Source: a virus. From it: DNA of 24,196 nucleotides. Shown in pieces: positions 4,267-12,457 of the stretch; within the stretch, counting starts at the first letter, position 1, and the number at the start of each line of letters is the position of its first letter. A program made the position numbers and the translations under genes. The stretch covers positions 1 through 24,196 of the IMG/VR virus record IMGVR_UViG_3300046777_000654; one strand, given 5' to 3'. The notes under the pieces were generated by a model. The model saw nothing but the letters and a program-made list of their open reading frames with translations. It had not been told where the DNA came from and did no database searches.

Positions 4267-5487
4267 ATGGTTGAACATTCAATTATAAGGCTGTTTGTTG
4301 GGAATACTGAGCTTTACGAAAAGTATTCGCCATCACTCAAGCTAGACTATGTGCGACAGAATTATCCTGTCTTGTACAAATGCTTTAAATCCTTGCCTGC
4401 TTCAAGCATGGAAGTGTTAGAGGCTAATTACATGGCTAATTTCCCTGTCATCAAGGAAGGTGATAGAGAGACACTAAAGACAGTTATCAATGACATCAAG
4501 AACGCAGAGGCTACTGCTGATGAGATTATTCCATACTTAGAAAGCCACTTGGCTCGTGCTTGGGCTGCTAATGTTGCTATCCTAGCGTTAGATGTTGCAG
4601 AGGGTAGAACGACTGTCGACCAATTAGACGAGGTTATTGGAGAACGAGATAGCTCATTGTTGATTGACGCAGAGCAGATTGAGTTTGTTACAACAGACAT
4701 TGAGGAACTGATAAAGGATGAAAACTTAGAAGGAGGACTTAAATGGAGACTTAAATGCCTTAATCAATCACTCGGACCTTTGCGTAAGGGGAATTTTGGA
4801 CACATCTTTGCTCGTGTTGAAACAGGTAAAACTGCTATGTGGGTTTCAGAGGCTACATTCATGGCAGAACAGGTAGACAGACCAATCCTGATATTCTTTA
4901 ACGAGGAGGGGGGAAGAGATGTTGTTTTCCGTATGTACAATGCCATTACTGGTATGACTTACATGGAGATTGCACAGAACCCTAAACTAGCAAAGCAGAT
5001 ATGGGAAAAGAAGATTGGAGACCGTATTAAGTTTGTTGATAACCCTGTTCATGTAGAACGCAAAGCAATAGAACGCACCATTGAGCAAGTTGACCCATCT
5101 TTAATCATTGTTGACAATATGGACAAGGTTAAAGGGTTCACTGGAGATAGAAAAGACTTGCTGTTGCATGAGATTTACAAGTGGGGCAGAGATATTGCTA
5201 AGACACAATGCCCTTTTATTACTGTAGGACAAGCAGATAGCACTAGTCATAACAGCATGGTGATTGATGAAAGCCAGCTTGCAGATAGTAAGACTGCTAA
5301 ACCATCAGAACTTGACTTTATTCTTGGTATTGGTAGAATTGACAAAGAAGGACACGAGAATGTACGCTATCTCACTCTGTCAAAGAATAAGCTACGAGGT
5401 GATATGAACACAATAGAGGCTATGCGACACATGAGAGCACATCAAGTGTTATTAAAACCACATTTTTCAATTTATGAGGATATCTAA
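4267..5487 (+). CDS. Replicative DNA helicase, DnaB/T7 gp4C type, 406 aa
   Basis: Ring helicase that unwinds DNA at the fork. ATG at 4267 follows AAAGGA (4251-4256). Residues 1-165 form an all-helical N-terminal part. The RecA-like motor follows, with Walker A ARVETGKT at 182-189, a glutamate-containing strand ILIFFNEE, Walker B LIIVDNMD (Asp283), VGQAD (motif with Gln), and SKNKLRGD near the end, the arginine/lysine region of phage gp4-type helicases. The first residue of Walker A is Ala rather than Gly, a variant common in phage helicases of the 'ARPETGKT' type. It pairs with the separate primase upstream. Confidence 0.88.
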   Translation: MVEHSIIRLFVGNTELYEKYSPSLKLDYVRQNYPVLYKCFKSLPASSMEVLEANYMANFPVIKEGDRETLKTVINDIKNAEATADEIIPYLESHLARAWAANVAILALDVAEGRTTVDQLDEVIGERDSSLLIDAEQIEFVTTDIEELIKDENLEGGLKWRLKCLNQSLGPLRKGNFGHIFARVETGKTAMWVSEATFMAEQVDRPILIFFNEEGGRDVVFRMYNAITGMTYMEIAQNPKLAKQIWEKKIGDRIKFVDNPVHVERKAIERTIEQVDPSLIIVDNMDKVKGFTGDRKDLLLHEIYKWGRDIAKTQCPFITVGQADSTSHNSMVIDESQLADSKTAKPSELDFILGIGRIDKEGHENVRYLTLSKNKLRGDMNTIEAMRHMRAHQVLLKPHFSIYEDI

Positions 5488-5488
5488 A

Positions 5489-5782
5489 ATGAGTGACTAT
5501 TACGAGTATTACCATAACAACCCACATGAGATTGATGATATGCCAGAGGATGAGTACGAAGAAATGCTACATGATGCTATGCTAGAAGAATTAGATGAGA
5601 TTGAAGGTAGTGATTGTGTTGACTTAGGGCTAGAACAGAATGAAGAAGCATTCTATAATGCTATGCGTGGTATTACACTAGCTTATTACGACATGGATGA
5701 TAAACAAATATTGACAAATGCTAAAATATTAGGTAAACTAGTTACAGATAAACTTACTAATTTAGTAGAAAAGGATTTATAA
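5489..5782 (+). CDS. Acidic protein downstream of helicase, 97 aa
   Basis: The ATG at 5489 is chosen over the in-frame ATG at 5474 because GAGGA (5476-5480) lies 8 nt upstream of it. The first 55 residues are extremely acidic (DDMPEDEYEEMLHDAMLEELDEIEG), and the C-terminal 40 look like ordinary amphipathic helix. Such acidity could mean a DNA mimic or a protein-protein adaptor for the helicase, but no family is recognised. The start is 1 nt after the helicase stop and the end overlaps the next gene (ATAATG). Confidence 0.65.
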   Translation: MSDYYEYYHNNPHEIDDMPEDEYEEMLHDAMLEELDEIEGSDCVDLGLEQNEEAFYNAMRGITLAYYDMDDKQILTNAKILGKLVTDKLTNLVEKDL

Positions 5783-6111
5783 TGAAACCACATAAATGGG
5801 CAAAAGAAATAATTGCTTGGGCAAATGGTGCAGAGATTGAAGAATTGATAGGTTCAACATGGCATCAAGTATATCCACCGCAATGGCATAGAGATAGCCA
5901 GTACCGCATTAAACCACAACAGCAACAAAGTAGTTGTTGCCAATGCCAGCAGACTAGTTCTGCTCTAAAAGAGCCACAGTATTTGTTAGCGGTCAGATTA
6001 ACTGACGGAAGCGATAAGTTAGGCATAAGTGGTGAATGGGTGGAATTAAAAAAAGGTGAGTCAGTTCACCATGTAATAGGAAAAATTAAACTGGAAACTG
6101 ATAATGAATGA
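5782..6111 (+). CDS. Phage hypothetical protein with YRIKP motif, 109 aa
   Basis: The stop of the previous gene overlaps this ATG (5782), and AAGGA precedes it. The N-terminal 45 residues (HKWAKEIIAWANGAEIE ... QWHRDSQYRIKP) match a widely spread phage mini-domain in which a helix 'IIAWANGAEI' is followed by 'W...YRIKP', function unknown. A linker with QQQQSSCCQCQQ, including a CCxC cluster, follows. A C-terminal beta region (YLLAVRLTDGSDKLGISGEWVELKKGE) may be a second small domain. The linker composition is low-complexity. Confidence 0.65.
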   Translation: MKPHKWAKEIIAWANGAEIEELIGSTWHQVYPPQWHRDSQYRIKPQQQQSSCCQCQQTSSALKEPQYLLAVRLTDGSDKLGISGEWVELKKGESVHHVIGKIKLETDNE

Positions 6112-6301
6112 AGTTATACTTAAAGATTTACCAGTAGACCATCCATTAAGAAATAAACCATTAGCAGGGTTTTTCTATTATGCTAGAGGAAGTAAGATTG
6201 CTAGAGAGGTATTCCCTGCATTCGGAATTGCTAAAGTGTGTTATAATGACCTTTCAGATGTATGGACAAAGTATGACATATTTGTATGGAGACAAGAATG
6301 A
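6104..6301 (+). CDS. Small hypothetical protein, 65 aa
   Basis: ATG at 6104 overlaps the end of the preceding gene by 8 nt, so translation is probably coupled; only a weak GGAAA site is present. The product MNEVILKDLPVDHPLRNKPL... is soluble with several aromatic residues (FFYYARG, VWRQE) and no Cys pair. It overlaps the next gene by 4 nt (ATGA at 6298). No family recognised. Confidence 0.6.
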   Translation: MNEVILKDLPVDHPLRNKPLAGFFYYARGSKIAREVFPAFGIAKVCYNDLSDVWTKYDIFVWRQE

Positions 6302-6438
6302 AGCTATGGGCTATATTAGATGACGAAGGTAAACCAGTTAGGTTCTTTGATTACCCTGCAGAGGGCGCACAGCAATACCCTGCACCTCCTGAGACATTAC
6401 CTAAAGACCATCCTGATTGGGATAACCCATTATTTTAG
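6298..6438 (+). CDS. Small Pro-rich hypothetical protein, 46 aa
   Basis: ATG at 6298 overlaps the preceding stop as ATGA, with GGAGA (6288-6292) upstream. The product MKLWAILDDEGKPVRFFD starts with a strand and ends with a proline-rich tail (YPAPPETLPKDHPDWDNPLF). The N-terminal pattern, an '[IL]-x-D-x-x-G-K-P-V-R-[FY]-F-x-Y' strand, is seen in many small phage proteins associated with tail or replication clusters. Here the place is in the replication half. Function unknown. Confidence 0.6.
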   Translation: MKLWAILDDEGKPVRFFDYPAEGAQQYPAPPETLPKDHPDWDNPLF

Positions 6439-6447
6439 GAAAATATA

Positions 6448-6651
6448 ATGATTACATTATCTTGTGGACATACAATACAATCTTATGATGAAGATTATTA
6501 TGATGTTATGACTAAAGGATATACTAGGGATGGAAGTAAATGTGTTGAGTATAAATCTGTTTGTAGTGATTGCTATGATGATTACAAAAAACATAATGAA
6601 ATACTAGAAAACGATTACCTTGCTGATATTTGGTTAGGAATAGGAGAGTGA
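6448..6651 (+). CDS. Small zinc-finger-like phage protein, 67 aa
   Basis: ATG at 6448 follows TAGGA (6436-6440). It has an N-terminal 'ITLSCGH' and a later 'VCSDCYDDYKK', giving Cys6, His8, Cys39 and Cys42, a plausible single zinc site. The middle contains 'YDVMTKGYTRDGSKCVEY'. I recognise this combination (LxCGH, then K.y.rdg, then VC.xCY) as a common phage protein of unknown function and of this length. It is followed 1 nt later by the next gene. Confidence 0.7.
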   Translation: MITLSCGHTIQSYDEDYYDVMTKGYTRDGSKCVEYKSVCSDCYDDYKKHNEILENDYLADIWLGIGE

Positions 6652-6652
6652 T

Positions 6653-6967
6653 ATGAATAAAGATGAAACAGGAGCTGTTTCTACAGCGAACGCTTTAAAG
6701 ATGGCAATTTTAAATTTAGAGGTGTGTGCTAGTTTAATGGCAACACATGAATATAGCGATGATTTTTACCAATCAGTTTCAGATGCTATTGATACTTGCA
6801 AAGAAGCACTAGAACAACCAGCGCAAGAGCCTTTGAGTGATGATGATATATTTAAAATTGTTTCAACTATTGAACAAATCAAACCACAATATGGAATGAT
6901 GCTATCAAACGAATGGAATATATTAGATTTTGCTCGCGCTATTGAACAAGCACATGGCATTGTTTAG
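6653..6967 (+). CDS. Phage accessory protein with C-terminal RAIExAHGI motif, 104 aa
   Basis: ATG at 6653 follows TAGGAGAG (6639-6646) at short spacing. The N-terminal part is helical (ALKMAILNLEVC...VSDAIDTCKEALEQ), then a Gln/Pro linker (PAQEPLSDDDI). The C-terminus ends FARAIEQAHGIV, matching the short 'ARAIEAAHGI' ending of many phage and prophage proteins. This modular helix-linker-HGI plan is typical of accessory proteins whose function has not been assigned. Soluble, no metal motif. Confidence 0.65.
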   Translation: MNKDETGAVSTANALKMAILNLEVCASLMATHEYSDDFYQSVSDAIDTCKEALEQPAQEPLSDDDIFKIVSTIEQIKPQYGMMLSNEWNILDFARAIEQAHGIV

Positions 6968-6989: not shown

Positions 6990-7139
6990 ATGAATAAAAA
7001 AGAATTGACATTGTATAGTATTTTCTTTGTACTTGGTATGATAGTGATGTATTACGTTAAAGATGCAAATACAGATTGCTTTGTTAAGTTTACAAGGGCA
7101 GATGGAGAGACACACATTCTTGTTGGGATTAGTAAATGA
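6990..7139 (+). CDS. Small membrane-anchored protein, 49 aa
   Basis: ATG at 6990 follows AAGGAG (6978-6983). MNKKELTL leads into a hydrophobic span (about residues 9-25), then a polar tail with KDANTDCFVKFTRADGETH, presumably outside the cytoplasm given the positive N-terminus. A signal-anchor protein is the best reading. Its stop overlaps the polymerase start as ATGA (7136-7139). No family recognised. Confidence 0.6.
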   Translation: MNKKELTLYSIFFVLGMIVMYYVKDANTDCFVKFTRADGETHILVGISK

Positions 7140-8287
7140 GAGTAAAACCTTGTGATTTAGAAACAACCATTTTCAATAAAGGAAACGCTTTTGACAGCCG
7201 TAACGAGGTTTGCTTTGTTGGACTTGGTGATAAAGTATGGGATATTTCATACTCTGATGAACCCTATGGACATAAACTGAAAGAGATACAAGATGAAATT
7301 AATAAAACAGATGTTCTCGTATTTGTCAACGCTAAGTTTGACCTTCATCATCTTAGGAATCTTGGTATTTCTTTCTCTGAAGTTCGTATATGGGATTGTG
7401 CACTGGTGGATTTTATGTTAGAGGGGCAGACAACCCCTTACCCTTCAATGAACAAAATGGCAGATAAATATGGCTTACCGCAGAAACCGGATATTAAAGA
7501 AACCTACTGGAACAACGGCATCGATACTAAGGACATACCTAGAGACGAGGTGGTCTCCTACCTGCAAGAGCATGACCTTAAAACAACTTTGGCAATTTAC
7601 GAGATACAAAAAACGCTTGTTGACAAGAAGCCAAAAGAGTTCCAACGGCTCGTTAGCTTATGTAATCAGGACATCCTTGTCTTACAAGAAATGGAGTATA
7701 ATGGATTCTATTTTGATGAATCACGCTGTAAGCAAAAAGCTACAGAACTTGAAGTTCAGATTAAAGAATTAAGGATGGAATTAAATGACTACCATAACAT
7801 CGAAGAGTTTAACACTGAAAGTGGAGACCACTTATCCGCACTCTTATACGGAGGAACAATTACGATTTCTCGGAAAGAGCTTGTTGGAACTTACAAAACA
7901 GGGGAACGAGCAGGGGAAGATAAGTATGGATGGCGAGATTACGATTACACTCTCCCTAGACTATTTAACCCTCTGCCTAAAACAGAACTAAAGAAAGAAG
8001 GATATTGGGCAACCGGTGAAGATGTACTAAAACAACTCAAGTGTAGGGATAAAGCAGGTAAACGATTGTTAGAAGTGATATTATCCCTTGCTAAACTTGA
8101 AAAGATGGTAGGAACATATTATAATGGCTTACCTAAGTTACGAGAGGATATGAATTGGAAAAAGAATTATTTACATGGCAATTTGAATCAAGTAACAGCA
8201 CGGACAGGCAGACTGTCTTCAACTAAACCAAACTTGCAGAACATTGCAGGAGATATGAAAGAAATCTTTGTATCAAGATTTAATTAG
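7136..8287 (+). CDS. Family A DNA polymerase, N-terminal fragment (3'-5' exonuclease + thumb + RTGRLSS motif), 383 aa
   Basis: First part of the replicative polymerase. ATG at 7136 overlaps the preceding stop (ATGA). A 3'-5' proofreading domain begins with the DxE motif (Asp7, Glu9 in CDLETT), followed by VNAKFDLHHL and a YLQEHDLKTTLAIY motif. The palm/thumb start (LVSLCNQDILVLQEMEYNGFYFDE) and then TARTGRLSSTKPNLQNI (about 355-371), the conserved motif just before motif A, follow. The protein then stops at TAG 8285 after EIFVSRFN, where an intact enzyme would continue within a few residues to motif A. It lacks every polymerase catalytic carboxylate. The rest is encoded at 8547-9269, after an inserted small gene. 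Confidence 0.85.
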   Translation: MRVKPCDLETTIFNKGNAFDSRNEVCFVGLGDKVWDISYSDEPYGHKLKEIQDEINKTDVLVFVNAKFDLHHLRNLGISFSEVRIWDCALVDFMLEGQTTPYPSMNKMADKYGLPQKPDIKETYWNNGIDTKDIPRDEVVSYLQEHDLKTTLAIYEIQKTLVDKKPKEFQRLVSLCNQDILVLQEMEYNGFYFDESRCKQKATELEVQIKELRMELNDYHNIEEFNTESGDHLSALLYGGTITISRKELVGTYKTGERAGEDKYGWRDYDYTLPRLFNPLPKTELKKEGYWATGEDVLKQLKCRDKAGKRLLEVILSLAKLEKMVGTYYNGLPKLREDMNWKKNYLHGNLNQVTARTGRLSSTKPNLQNIAGDMKEIFVSRFN

Positions 8288-8295
8288 GAGTAGAT

Positions 8296-8553
8296 ATGAG
8301 TAATGCAAAAGAGTTTAATGATGTTTATGGTCAAGTAGAGCTAGACTATCAAGCATACTTGGATTATCAACGAGACCAAGCAGAAGAAGCACAACGAGAA
8401 GCATGGGTTTGGGCAACAATCTCGAATGTTAATGACCTAGTAAAAGAGTATGGTATTAGATTCTTTGTAGAGCATTTAGACAATCATTCTAAGATTGCTT
8501 TGTCAGACTATTATCGCAAGATGCAAGAAAAGAAAGGAGAACCACCATTTTAA
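8296..8553 (+). CDS. Small gene inserted within the DNA polymerase, 85 aa
   Basis: ATG at 8296 has TAGGAG (8285-8290) overlapping the stop codon of the upstream polymerase fragment. The product MSNAKEFNDVYGQVELDYQAYLDYQRDQAEEAQREA... is an acidic, Tyr/Gln/Glu-rich helical protein ending VNDLVKEYGIRFFVEHLDNHSKIALSDYYRKMQ. The last part resembles a small helical module of stand-alone phage proteins (weak). It shows no HNH, LAGLIDADG or GIY-YIG nuclease signature and is not similar to any polymerase region. Near its end, AGGAGA (8535-8540) forms a second ribosome-binding site leading into the polymerase frame. An insertion cassette is the best description. Confidence 0.75.
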   Translation: MSNAKEFNDVYGQVELDYQAYLDYQRDQAEEAQREAWVWATISNVNDLVKEYGIRFFVEHLDNHSKIALSDYYRKMQEKKGEPPF

Positions 8554-9269
8554 TACAATGTGATGCTGCAGCTTTGGAGATTAGAGTTGCTGCTTTTCTC
8601 TCACAAGACCCTGTGCTAGTGCAAGAAATTGTAGACGGGGCGGACTTACATACAGATAACCAACAGAGATTTGGACTTCCATCTAGGTTACTTGCTAAGG
8701 TGTTTAACTTTAGACTGTTGTATGGAGGCTCTGCCTACAGTTATGCAAATGATACAGACTTTATGGGTATTAGTAGGAGTGAGAAGTATTGGCAAGAAGT
8801 TATTGATGCGTATTATGATAAGTACAAGGGGATTAAAGAATGGCATAAATTTTTAGTTAGACAAGCAATAGAAACAGGGAAAGTTATTTCCCCCACTGGA
8901 AGAGAATACAGATTTGAGAAATATAATGGCATCATCAAAGACACACAGGTTAAGAACTACATTGTACAGGGCACTGGTGCTGATTTAATGGCACTAGCTA
9001 GAGTTAGCTTCTATAATCGTATCAAGAAGTTAGGATTAAAAGAGTGCTTGTTAGTAAATACTGTGCATGACTCAATAGTTATTGACTTTAATGAAAAAGT
9101 ATGCGATAATAAGGTTATAGCTAAAACATTTCATGATGTATTTGATGATTTACCCATGAATTTTGAGAAGCTGTTTTATACCCCTTTCAATGTACCAATG
9201 GAATGTGAAGTACTAATGGGCAAAGATTGGGAAAATATGGAAGAAATTACAAAGGAGAGTTTATGTTAA
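8547..9269 (+). CDS. Family A DNA polymerase, C-terminal fragment (motifs A, B, C), about 240 aa
   Basis: Catalytic palm and fingers of the polymerase. The open frame runs from 8493, but it contains no ATG, GTG or TTG before a TTG at 8574. That TTG would remove motif A: CDAAALEIR has its Asp at codon 8562-8564. The only initiation site that keeps it is ATT at 8547, 6 nt after AGGAGA (8535-8540). Otherwise a -1 frameshift at the end of the inserted gene is needed. Motif A Asp is followed by motif B RLLAKVFNFRLLYG (Lys codon 8697) and motif C VNTVHDSIVID (His-Asp codons 9066-9071). All catalytic residues are present, so the split enzyme can be active if both halves associate. It overlaps the SSB gene by 7 nt. 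Confidence 0.8.
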   Translation: MLIQCDAAALEIRVAAFLSQDPVLVQEIVDGADLHTDNQQRFGLPSRLLAKVFNFRLLYGGSAYSYANDTDFMGISRSEKYWQEVIDAYYDKYKGIKEWHKFLVRQAIETGKVISPTGREYRFEKYNGIIKDTQVKNYIVQGTGADLMALARVSFYNRIKKLGLKECLLVNTVHDSIVIDFNEKVCDNKVIAKTFHDVFDDLPMNFEKLFYTPFNVPMECEVLMGKDWENMEEITKESLC

Positions 9270-10875: not shown

Positions 10876-11092
10876 GTTTGAATGGGACACAATGCAACAA
10901 ATATTTGTAGAACACGCAAAAAACTGTCTTGACCTTGCAATTAGATTTGATAATGATGAAGCAGAGATTAAATCTTATTTGTTTGTTATTTCAGATAACT
11001 TATCTAAAAGAAAGTTTATAGAATATGTCAAGGAAAAAGACCTCGAAGCCCACTGTCAAGAAATCTTCCAAAGGTACGAAAGCTACCTCTAA
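10865..11092 (+). CDS. Small acidic protein, 75 aa
   Basis: ATG at 10865, with AGGA at 10854-10857 upstream, overlaps the exonuclease end by 11 nt. The product MEIEFEWDTMQQIFVEHAKNCLDLAIRF... is predicted to be mostly helical, without Cys pairs or membrane segments. It overlaps the HNH gene start (11025) by 68 nt in another frame, a rather long overlap that makes one of the two starts uncertain. Function unknown. Confidence 0.55.
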   Translation: MEIEFEWDTMQQIFVEHAKNCLDLAIRFDNDEAEIKSYLFVISDNLSKRKFIEYVKEKDLEAHCQEIFQRYESYL

Positions 11093-11453
11093 GAAAGAAT
11101 GGACAGAAGGTAGACTTAAAGCATTTATTACGAGTGTACTGAGGGGTGGATATAGACGTTACCCTCCTAAGTATGAAGTGTTAAAAGAAGCATTATGGGG
11201 TAAGAAGTTAAACCCCAAGACAGGTAGACAGTCAATACACTATATTTGCGCCAAATGCAAAAAAGAATACCCTGCTAAGGAGGTAAATGTAGACCATATT
11301 GAACCAGTTGTGTGCCCTAAGCAAGGTTTTGTAAGTTGGGATGAGTTTATTACACGACTTTTTTGCGAGAAACACAATTTACAAGTGTTATGTACAACCT
11401 GTCATACTGAAAAAACAAATGAAGAAAGGAAACAACGTGGCAACAAAGAATGA
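11025..11453 (+). CDS. HNH endonuclease, 142 aa
   Basis: DNA nuclease of the HNH type. The first 25 residues are a Lys/Ser/Thr-rich basic tail (SRKKTSKPTVKKSSKGTKAT), probably for DNA contact. A helical part follows, then the zinc-HNH core: CAKC (Cys75, Cys78), DHIEPV (Asp90, His91), HNLQVLC (Asn118) and CTTCHTEK (Cys123, Cys126, His127). Its place after the exonuclease, where T7-like phages keep recombination nucleases, suggests a role in DNA resolution or packaging rather than homing. The ribosome-binding site at 11025 is weak and overlaps the preceding gene, so a later start is possible. Confidence 0.75.
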   Translation: MSRKKTSKPTVKKSSKGTKATSKKEWTEGRLKAFITSVLRGGYRRYPPKYEVLKEALWGKKLNPKTGRQSIHYICAKCKKEYPAKEVNVDHIEPVVCPKQGFVSWDEFITRLFCEKHNLQVLCTTCHTEKTNEERKQRGNKE

Positions 11454-11667
11454 TATTACTGGAGATAGTTTAATCTCGAAGGTAAATACAAAAGCCTTTG
11501 AAGACAACTTTGACAAGATATTTCGTAAAGAAGCTAAAAACCTCTGTGATGTTTGTGCTAAAGATTTAGAAAAGGTTACAGAGTGTGCATGGACTTCTTG
11601 CCCTTTAAATTGGAATGAAGGTAGAGCAGACCAAATCGGTCAGAATGGGAATATTGGATATGAGTAA
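11437..11667 (+). CDS. Small zinc-motif protein, 76 aa
   Basis: GTG at 11437 is preferred to the in-frame ATG at 11341 because AGAAAGGA (11423-11430) sits 6 nt upstream and the longer form would lie inside the HNH gene. The product ATKNDITGDSLISKVNT... carries CDVCAKDLEK (two Cys) and CAWTSC further on, i.e. four Cys that could bind one zinc. No family recognised. It overlaps the HNH stop and, at its end, the metallophosphatase start (11660). Confidence 0.55.
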   Translation: MATKNDITGDSLISKVNTKAFEDNFDKIFRKEAKNLCDVCAKDLEKVTECAWTSCPLNWNEGRADQIGQNGNIGYE

Positions 11668-12457
11668 ACGAATCATTGTAATACCTGATAGTCAAATCAG
11701 ACCAGAAGATGACTTTGAGTTCTTGTCATTCATTGGGCAATACATTGTAGATATGCAGCCTGACATTATTGTTCACTTAGGTGACTTTGCAGATATGCCG
11801 TCTCTATCTCAGCATGACAAAGCTGGCAGTAAGAGTATGGAAGGTATGCGTTACAAGGCAGATATACAAGCCTCGAAAGATGCTATGGCAACTCTGTTAG
11901 AGCCAATTCGTGACTTACAGAAACGTCAAAAGCAGAGTAAGCATAAAGTATGGAAACCTGATATGATTATGCTGTATGGTAATCATGAACATCGAATTAA
12001 TAGAGCAATACAGAATGACCCTAAACTTGAAGGGTTAATTAGCCTAGAGGACTTAGAATATGAGAAGTTTGGTTGGAAAACTGTTCCTTTCTTGCAGCCT
12101 ATTAATATTGAGGGTGTTATGTTTTGTCATTACTTTGTGTCTGGGGTTATGGGTAATCCTTGCACAACTGCTAGGAGCATTCTTAATAAGCATCATCAGT
12201 CTTGTATTGCAGGGCATCAGCAAGGTAGGGACATTGCTTTCGGAAGACGAGCAGACGGAACAGAAATGACAGCCATGATTGTGGGCTCTGGGTATGAACA
12301 CGATGAGAAATACTTGAACTCACAAACAAACAATCATTGGAGAGGTATTGTTGTATTAAATGAAGTTGAAGATGGGCATTTTGATGAAATAATGGTATCA
12401 TTAAAGTATCTGCGTAAGAAGTATGGCAGTAAATCTTCACTTAAACTTGTAGCATAG
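11660..12457 (+). CDS. Calcineurin-like metallophosphoesterase, 265 aa
   Basis: Hydrolyses phosphomonoesters, phosphodiesters or nucleotides with a two-metal centre; substrate unknown. The ATG at 11660 is chosen rather than 11615, because residues from MSKRIIVIPDSQIRPED match the usual start of the fold. Motifs in order: PDSQI (DxQ instead of DxH), LGDFADMPS (GDxxD), YGNHEHR (GNHE), CHYF, and AGHQQGR (GHxx). The DxQ and GHQQ variants are seen in phage members of the family. It sits in the replication/nucleotide block before a DUF3310-type protein. It is most often left unassigned in phage genomes. Confidence 0.75.
   Translation: MSKRIIVIPDSQIRPEDDFEFLSFIGQYIVDMQPDIIVHLGDFADMPSLSQHDKAGSKSMEGMRYKADIQASKDAMATLLEPIRDLQKRQKQSKHKVWKPDMIMLYGNHEHRINRAIQNDPKLEGLISLEDLEYEKFGWKTVPFLQPINIEGVMFCHYFVSGVMGNPCTTARSILNKHHQSCIAGHQQGRDIAFGRRADGTEMTAMIVGSGYEHDEKYLNSQTNNHWRGIVVLNEVEDGHFDEIMVSLKYLRKKYGSKSSLKLVA

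Follow-up and report, generated by a model that had tools for sequence, protein, structure and literature searches.

A replicative family A DNA polymerase probably formed from two separately translated chains in a phage clade related to Zobellviridae

The closest described counterparts of the locus analysed here are the Methylophilales phages MEP401 and MEP402, whose DNA polymerase is split with a small ORF between the two parts, as it is in "most group I" metagenomic relatives; the authors left the question of an intron open (PMC10580990). Phage T4 genes 39 and 60 represent a replication enzyme split by a homing endonuclease, with mobA and a protecting 50-nt bypass in gene 60 beside the HNH gene (PMC5009743). 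The split 43A/43B genes of Aeromonas phages 25 and 44RR and the split nrdA of Aeh1 demonstrate that split phage enzymes reassemble and work (PMC2988022), but these are a family B polymerase or a ribonucleotide reductase, whereas the enzyme considered here belongs to family A and is split in a whole clade. The polymerase of Vibrio phage ICP2 (Zobellviridae) is interrupted between RTGRLSS and motif A like that of the window, but about 16 residues earlier (after NLQNISN), and it falls outside the split clade on the tree, which indicates an independent split. Of the ICP2 loci (L035 and L036), that of one strain carries an HNH-annotated gene in the gap and is annotated as an intron-joined gene, and that of the Haiti strain shows only about 9 nt between stop and start.

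The window, i.e., the complete 24,196 bases of the viral record IMGVR_UViG_3300046777_000654, encodes a family A DNA polymerase in two frames. It resembles MEP401 and MEP402 in the split point, in an N half containing the exonuclease and the start of the polymerase domain, in the small ORF between the halves (ORF14 of MEP401, which belongs to the same profile family as the 85-aa protein of the window, termed M in the following), in the separate C half, and in a similar order of replication genes. It differs in its polymerase sequence (about 48% identity), in an AUU start and in the length of M (85 rather than 77 aa). The original prediction had regarded the insertion point as unusual, which is only partly right, because the split point has already been published for MEP401/402 (PMC10580990). 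The polymerase of the window thus belongs to a published kind and is set apart by its apparent AUU start and its junction-specific small protein, while the larger novelty seems to reside in its relatives. As judged from sequence comparison, the replicative polymerase probably consists of two assembling polypeptides that go back to one ancestral split, are translated separately, are accompanied by the accessory protein M and likely owe their origin to a homing endonuclease.

The two halves and the small gene between them

Three frames with starts of 2, 1, and 0 (mod 3) cover the junction as originally described, and the assignment of the exonuclease through RTGRLSS to the first and of motifs A, B, and C with the catalytic residues to the last is borne out by profile matches and invariant residues (Table 1). 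The polymerase domain of the N half extends to TGRLSSTKPNLQNIAGDMKEIFVSRFN, residues 280–372 matching Pfam DNA_pol_A (E 3e-19), and its exonuclease yields a weak Pfam match and matches to phrog_9556 and phrog_17 at about 1e-43 or better. The C frame corresponds to DNA_pol_A positions 154–380 (E 8e-31). The DEDD residues of the 3'-5' exonuclease (D7, E9, D69, and D147) and TGRLSS are invariant in nine split relatives, as are D6 of motif A, R47 and K51 of motif B (the RxxxK of the O-helix), and H174-D175 of motif C, the HD motif. In profile searches against solved structures, the alignment of the N half reaches NLQNI of Pol I, and the first residue of the C half aligns to Taq 605 and to Klenow chain position 377, which by our own arithmetic is about residue 700 of E. 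coli Pol I. Compared with the two nearest relatives, L002 and L007, the dN/dS values are 0.07 for the N half, 0.055 for the C half, and 0.07–0.09 for M (0.05–0.09 overall), ratios which are rough because synonymous sites are near saturation in these pairs. These values indicate that both halves are under strong purifying selection and, together with the low value of the small ORF, argue against a split by chance. The early region of the window further encodes a Toprim protein (primase-like), a DnaB-type helicase, a 5'-3' exonuclease, an HNH protein, and ribonucleotide reductase, and an ORF at 11615–12457 resembles a metallophosphoesterase by eye. The order of genes is close to that of MEP401 and MEP402, both classified as Zobellviridae in their records. 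The HNH protein (11025–11453) lies 3' of the 5'-3' exonuclease, a place occupied in MEP401 by an endonuclease.

Table 1. Features of the split polymerase locus in the window and at the junctions of its relatives.
Feature	Location	Strand	Remarks
N half of family A DNA polymerase	7136..8287	+	3'-5' exonuclease, thumb, palm up to RTGRLSS and ...MKEIFVSRFN; 383 aa
Exonuclease D7-x-E9 codons	7154..7162	+	invariant in split-relative alignment
RTGRLSS motif	8201..8221	+	TGRLSS invariant in split-relative alignment
AGGAG ribosome-binding site of 85-aa gene	8286..8290	+	overlaps N half stop codon
M, 85-aa small protein, predicted helical	8296..8553	+	family restricted to polymerase junction
AGGAG ribosome-binding site of C half	8535..8539	+	within end of M
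C half of family A DNA polymerase	8547..9269	+	fingers and catalytic palm; most likely AUU start, overlapping M stop
Motif A catalytic Asp codon (CDAAALEIR)	8562..8564	+	3' of AUU start
Motif B RLLAKVFNFRLLYGG	8685..8729	+	alignment of C halves
Motif C VHDS	9063..9074	+	alignment of C halves
HNH cassette in motif A of C half	L203 7205-7766; L209 3108-3667; L211 2136-2695; L212 3179-3726		
HNH cassette in motif A of C half	L255 1336-1987; L257 3964-4469; L258 3964-4468; L260 1791-2315		
Motif A breaks	L192 about 3030; L203 7761-7766; L209 3664-3667; L256 about 1554		
Motif A breaks	L257 4464-4469; L258 about 4461-4468; L260 2310-2315		

The first ATG, GTG, or TTG of the C frame is a TTG at 8574, and a start at this codon, 3' of the catalytic Asp codon of motif A, would drop the Asp. 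Conservation and spacing make ATT 8547 the most likely start, as AAAGGAG ends 7 nt upstream of it and the relatives have ATG at the equivalent position, five codons before the Asp; AUA 8553 is a possible alternative. AUU start codons are rare, infC of E. coli being a known case. The starts of 154 distinct C halves comprise 142 ATG (six of them one codon upstream), one GTG, one TTG, three ATT (the window, L002, and L007), and one ATC (L197, 7469), the remaining six being broken in motif A. A catalytic half that apparently starts with AUU is new here; nearly all relatives beyond the nearest group use AUG, GUG, or UUG.

The gene for M is complete and has its own ribosome-binding site, as originally noted, but it can hardly be regarded as unrelated cargo, because its homologues, collected with iterated profiles from the group of the window and including MEP401 ORF14, lie between the polymerase halves in 95 of 95 loci. 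Neither does it appear to have caused the split, because 35 of the 154 distinct sequences have overlapping halves with no gene between them. AlphaFold models M as three helices (mean pLDDT 87, pTM 0.53); the model has no fold match in the PDB, and the sequence gave no Pfam match, no convincing PHROG match, and no tblastn match in phage records. M is absent within the flanks examined from all 99 loci with a gap shorter than 150 nt, a count which would miss a distant copy beyond these flanks, and its presence changes six times on the tree, for which parsimony infers several losses. This distribution indicates that M is conserved but dispensable. Short ORFs resembling a truncated version of the 85-aa protein are present in L192 (2323–2508, MAKEFNDVYGQTDLDY...), in L212 (3058–3204), and in the gap of L056.

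Since the N half ends on a stop codon that lies partly within the ribosome-binding site of M, and the M stop overlaps the AUU start of the C half by 7 nt in the window (in several relatives it overlaps or abuts the C start), the arrangement suggests coupled translation of the halves from one message and a low, tuned synthesis of the catalytic half. Our best guess is that M serves this coupling as a small accessory protein, which would be useful yet dispensable, given its loss in several lineages. An obligate third subunit bridging the two halves would also account for its occurrence only at the junction, its helical model, and its purifying selection; the 99 short-gap loci and the several losses make such a role unlikely.

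Age and distribution of the split

None of the 220 clade loci with both halves and none of the 154 distinct C halves encodes a fused polymerase. The original suggestion to search for uninterrupted versions was followed up, and fused ones are present only outside the clade. In a tree of 85 sequences built without the motif A region, every sequence with the break at this site falls into one clade (SH-aLRT 99) with a single change to this split, and the fused polymerases of the HMO-2011 type and of BUCT700 fall outside, which indicates that the split arose once. It would have occurred in the ancestor of this Zobellviridae-related phage clade and been kept since. Fused HMO-2011-type outgroups read SRFEGGKIIEIDF through the split site, and the comparison of SRF-xGGK-IxEIDF in uninterrupted relatives with SRFN / ILIQCD in the window places the break in the turn that links the ...KEIFVSRF strand to that of motif A, with the loss of only two or three turn residues (GGK in the fused relatives). 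The window shares with the MEP401-type split a break that separates ...SR(F/Y) from the motif A strand, a C half with a separate start, and a small ORF between the halves that is homologous to ORF14 by iterated profile. A DnaJ insert of HMO-2011 was considered as an event at the split site and rejected, because it lies far upstream.

The distance from the N stop to the C start ranges from -17 to 3598 nt across the clade loci. The halves overlap or touch as stop/start in the 35 distinct sequences mentioned above, and N stop and C start overlap in QDWS535, for which no similar relatives were found in IMG/VR; in MW202796, the halves are 3.6 kb apart with eight annotated genes between them, including a cytosine methyltransferase. 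Bacterial and archaeal genome contigs contained no relatives.

HNH cassettes and motif A breaks in relatives

Eleven contigs contain a gene for an HNH endonuclease of the phrog_3322 type immediately 5' of the C half. Comparison of L203, L209, and L212 with empty relatives shows that a 13-nt piece of motif A, TGCTAAACAATTA or the corresponding sequence, is replaced by a cassette of 528–545 nt, the identities of the two flanks being 96 and 95% for L209/L112, 96 and 94% for L203/L110, and 88 and 82% for the more distant pair L212/L182. In eight contigs, the cassette is preceded by the original gene start, which is cut off. A promoter-like sequence TTGAC(T/A)-17-TATA(C/A)T (sigma70-like) follows the cut-off start in L203, L209, L211, L212, and L255, and no promoter as good as that of these five was found in L257, L258, and L260. 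The cassette continues with the HNH gene and in most cases a ribosome-binding site, and then repeats the gene start through motif A; this second copy mostly differs from the first by synonymous changes, i.e., is recoded. With this second copy behind the HNH gene, the cassette restarts the gene that it cuts. The duplicated gene start led us to drop a reading of these relatives as simple frame-broken genes. Splicing of the cassette was rejected as well: the first copy lacks the motif A codons after the Asp, and the in-frame stops of L203, L257, and L260 would therefore remain. In L283 (about 5500–6760), the gap contains an HNH gene and motif A is intact; a second insertion in this locus, with another HNH-like ORF, lies within motif B (KFVFR ... 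RLMYGG).

In all eleven contigs with the HNH gene immediately 5' of the C half (11/11), the second copy joins the body of the gene via a stop or a frame change within motif A, the break consisting of inserted TAACTG, TAGCCC, TAGCTC, TCTT, CCTT, TA, or ATATGCAG, or of one missing base. HNH gene and break change together in seven to eight of eight independent pairs on the tree (sign test, p about 0.008). A +1 break in motif A also occurs without an HNH gene in L034 (MW202697, 4849–5100), where the gap is filled by an unrelated R67 DHFR-like ORF. The dN/dS values of the bodies (0.027 for L209/L211, 0.115 for L203/L209, and 0.108 for L192/L212) indicate that the broken genes stay under purifying selection, and no second PolA gene was found in eight of the records, a set that includes fragments.

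Counted by eye, five of seven insertion alleles have, directly in front of the body or of the shared codons, a triplet that encodes the same amino acid as the last codon of the leader (CTG/CTG, CTT/CTT twice, CTT/CTC, and CAA/CAG), so that a hop between them would restore the exact motif A. Ribosome hopping across the breaks is therefore predicted, and stop-hops between matched codons are indeed known (PMC5009743); the matching triplets could also represent short duplications made during repair. As in T4 genes 39/60, an HNH gene lies between the two parts, and a break close to the start of the second part has to be decoded or escaped. The differences are that a family A polymerase is affected, that the breaks of the relatives measure -1 to +8 nt, that the cassette carries a recoded gene start, and that the window itself contains neither an HNH gene at the junction nor a break.

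The C half of the window begins at the same place as the cassette copies, and the ancestral split may thus be a cassette remnant after loss of the HNH gene, although neither an endonuclease gene, which is present in some relatives, nor a second copy of the gene start is retained at the junction of the window. The most likely origin would be the arrival of a homing-endonuclease gene at motif A, of the kind seen as later insertions in living relatives. The more far-reaching view that the split is a fixed scar of such a cassette, and that some ten living lineages read across a break of 1–8 nt by hopping or frameshifting, is held tentatively and with somewhat less than even confidence: cassettes, breaks, and selection on the bodies are seen; that ribosomes hop and that the ancestral split goes back to such a cassette is deduced. 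If true, an essential gene would be cut and restarted in one step by a cassette with a ribosome-binding site and recoded first codons, and the relatives would provide a family of natural, short bypass sites that can be compared with T4 mobA and gene 60.

Probably two chains rather than one

A polymerase in two pieces on a metagenomic contig may raise the suspicion of a sequencing or assembly error or of a decaying pseudogene, yet the same architecture recurs in many independent contigs and in the isolates MEP401, MEP402, and QDWS535, with dN/dS far below 1, leaving these causes a negligible probability and bearing out the original view of a natural split. Self-splicing of the 262-nt insert as an intron with an ORF, giving a mature message for one polymerase, has precedents, as introns and HNH genes occur in phage polymerase genes, and was raised for the Methylophilales phages (PMC10580990). 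Rfam, however, gave no group I or II intron even at E 1 over 8150–8700, nor any match in the HNH-bearing relatives, and the ORF fills the insert. Splicing is also improbable because the C half comes with a ribosome-binding site and a start of its own and the distance between the halves varies, from overlap or contact to the 3.6 kb and eight genes of MW202796; we consider it even less likely than a frameshift or bypass by which the C half would be fused to M or to the N half. Such a fusion, itself very unlikely, would fit the 7-nt overlap of M and C and the 17-nt overlaps of N and C in relatives, but no slippery heptamer was seen at the junction, a stop closes the C frame of L002 a few codons above the ATT, and overlap lengths and distances vary freely, with some relatives having their halves kilobases apart.

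The never-fused clade, the variable distance, the single origin, and the restriction of M to the junction all argue against splicing and for a two-chain polymerase, the halves of which would assemble in vivo into one enzyme. The original idea of two complementary halves forming a two-subunit polymerase is thus supported by comparison, while its insertion story as a whole, a gene lodged between the halves and splitting them, finds no support in the clade and has been revised, the observation itself standing.

These data argue strongly that the MEP401-type split represents an old, stable two-gene state rather than an intron, and the replicative polymerase has therefore probably worked as two chains across the whole clade. 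With its break adjoining the catalytic strand, it can guide the design of split polymerases by natural example. In the relatives, the HNH cassette, its recoded gene start, and the motif A breaks suggest a way, open to testing, in which mobile elements could split essential genes; the breaks may also be a natural collection of short ribosome hops, a class with few known examples. Some relatives still carry such a mobile DNA-cutting gene close to the position of the split, and this may be how splits of this kind arise.
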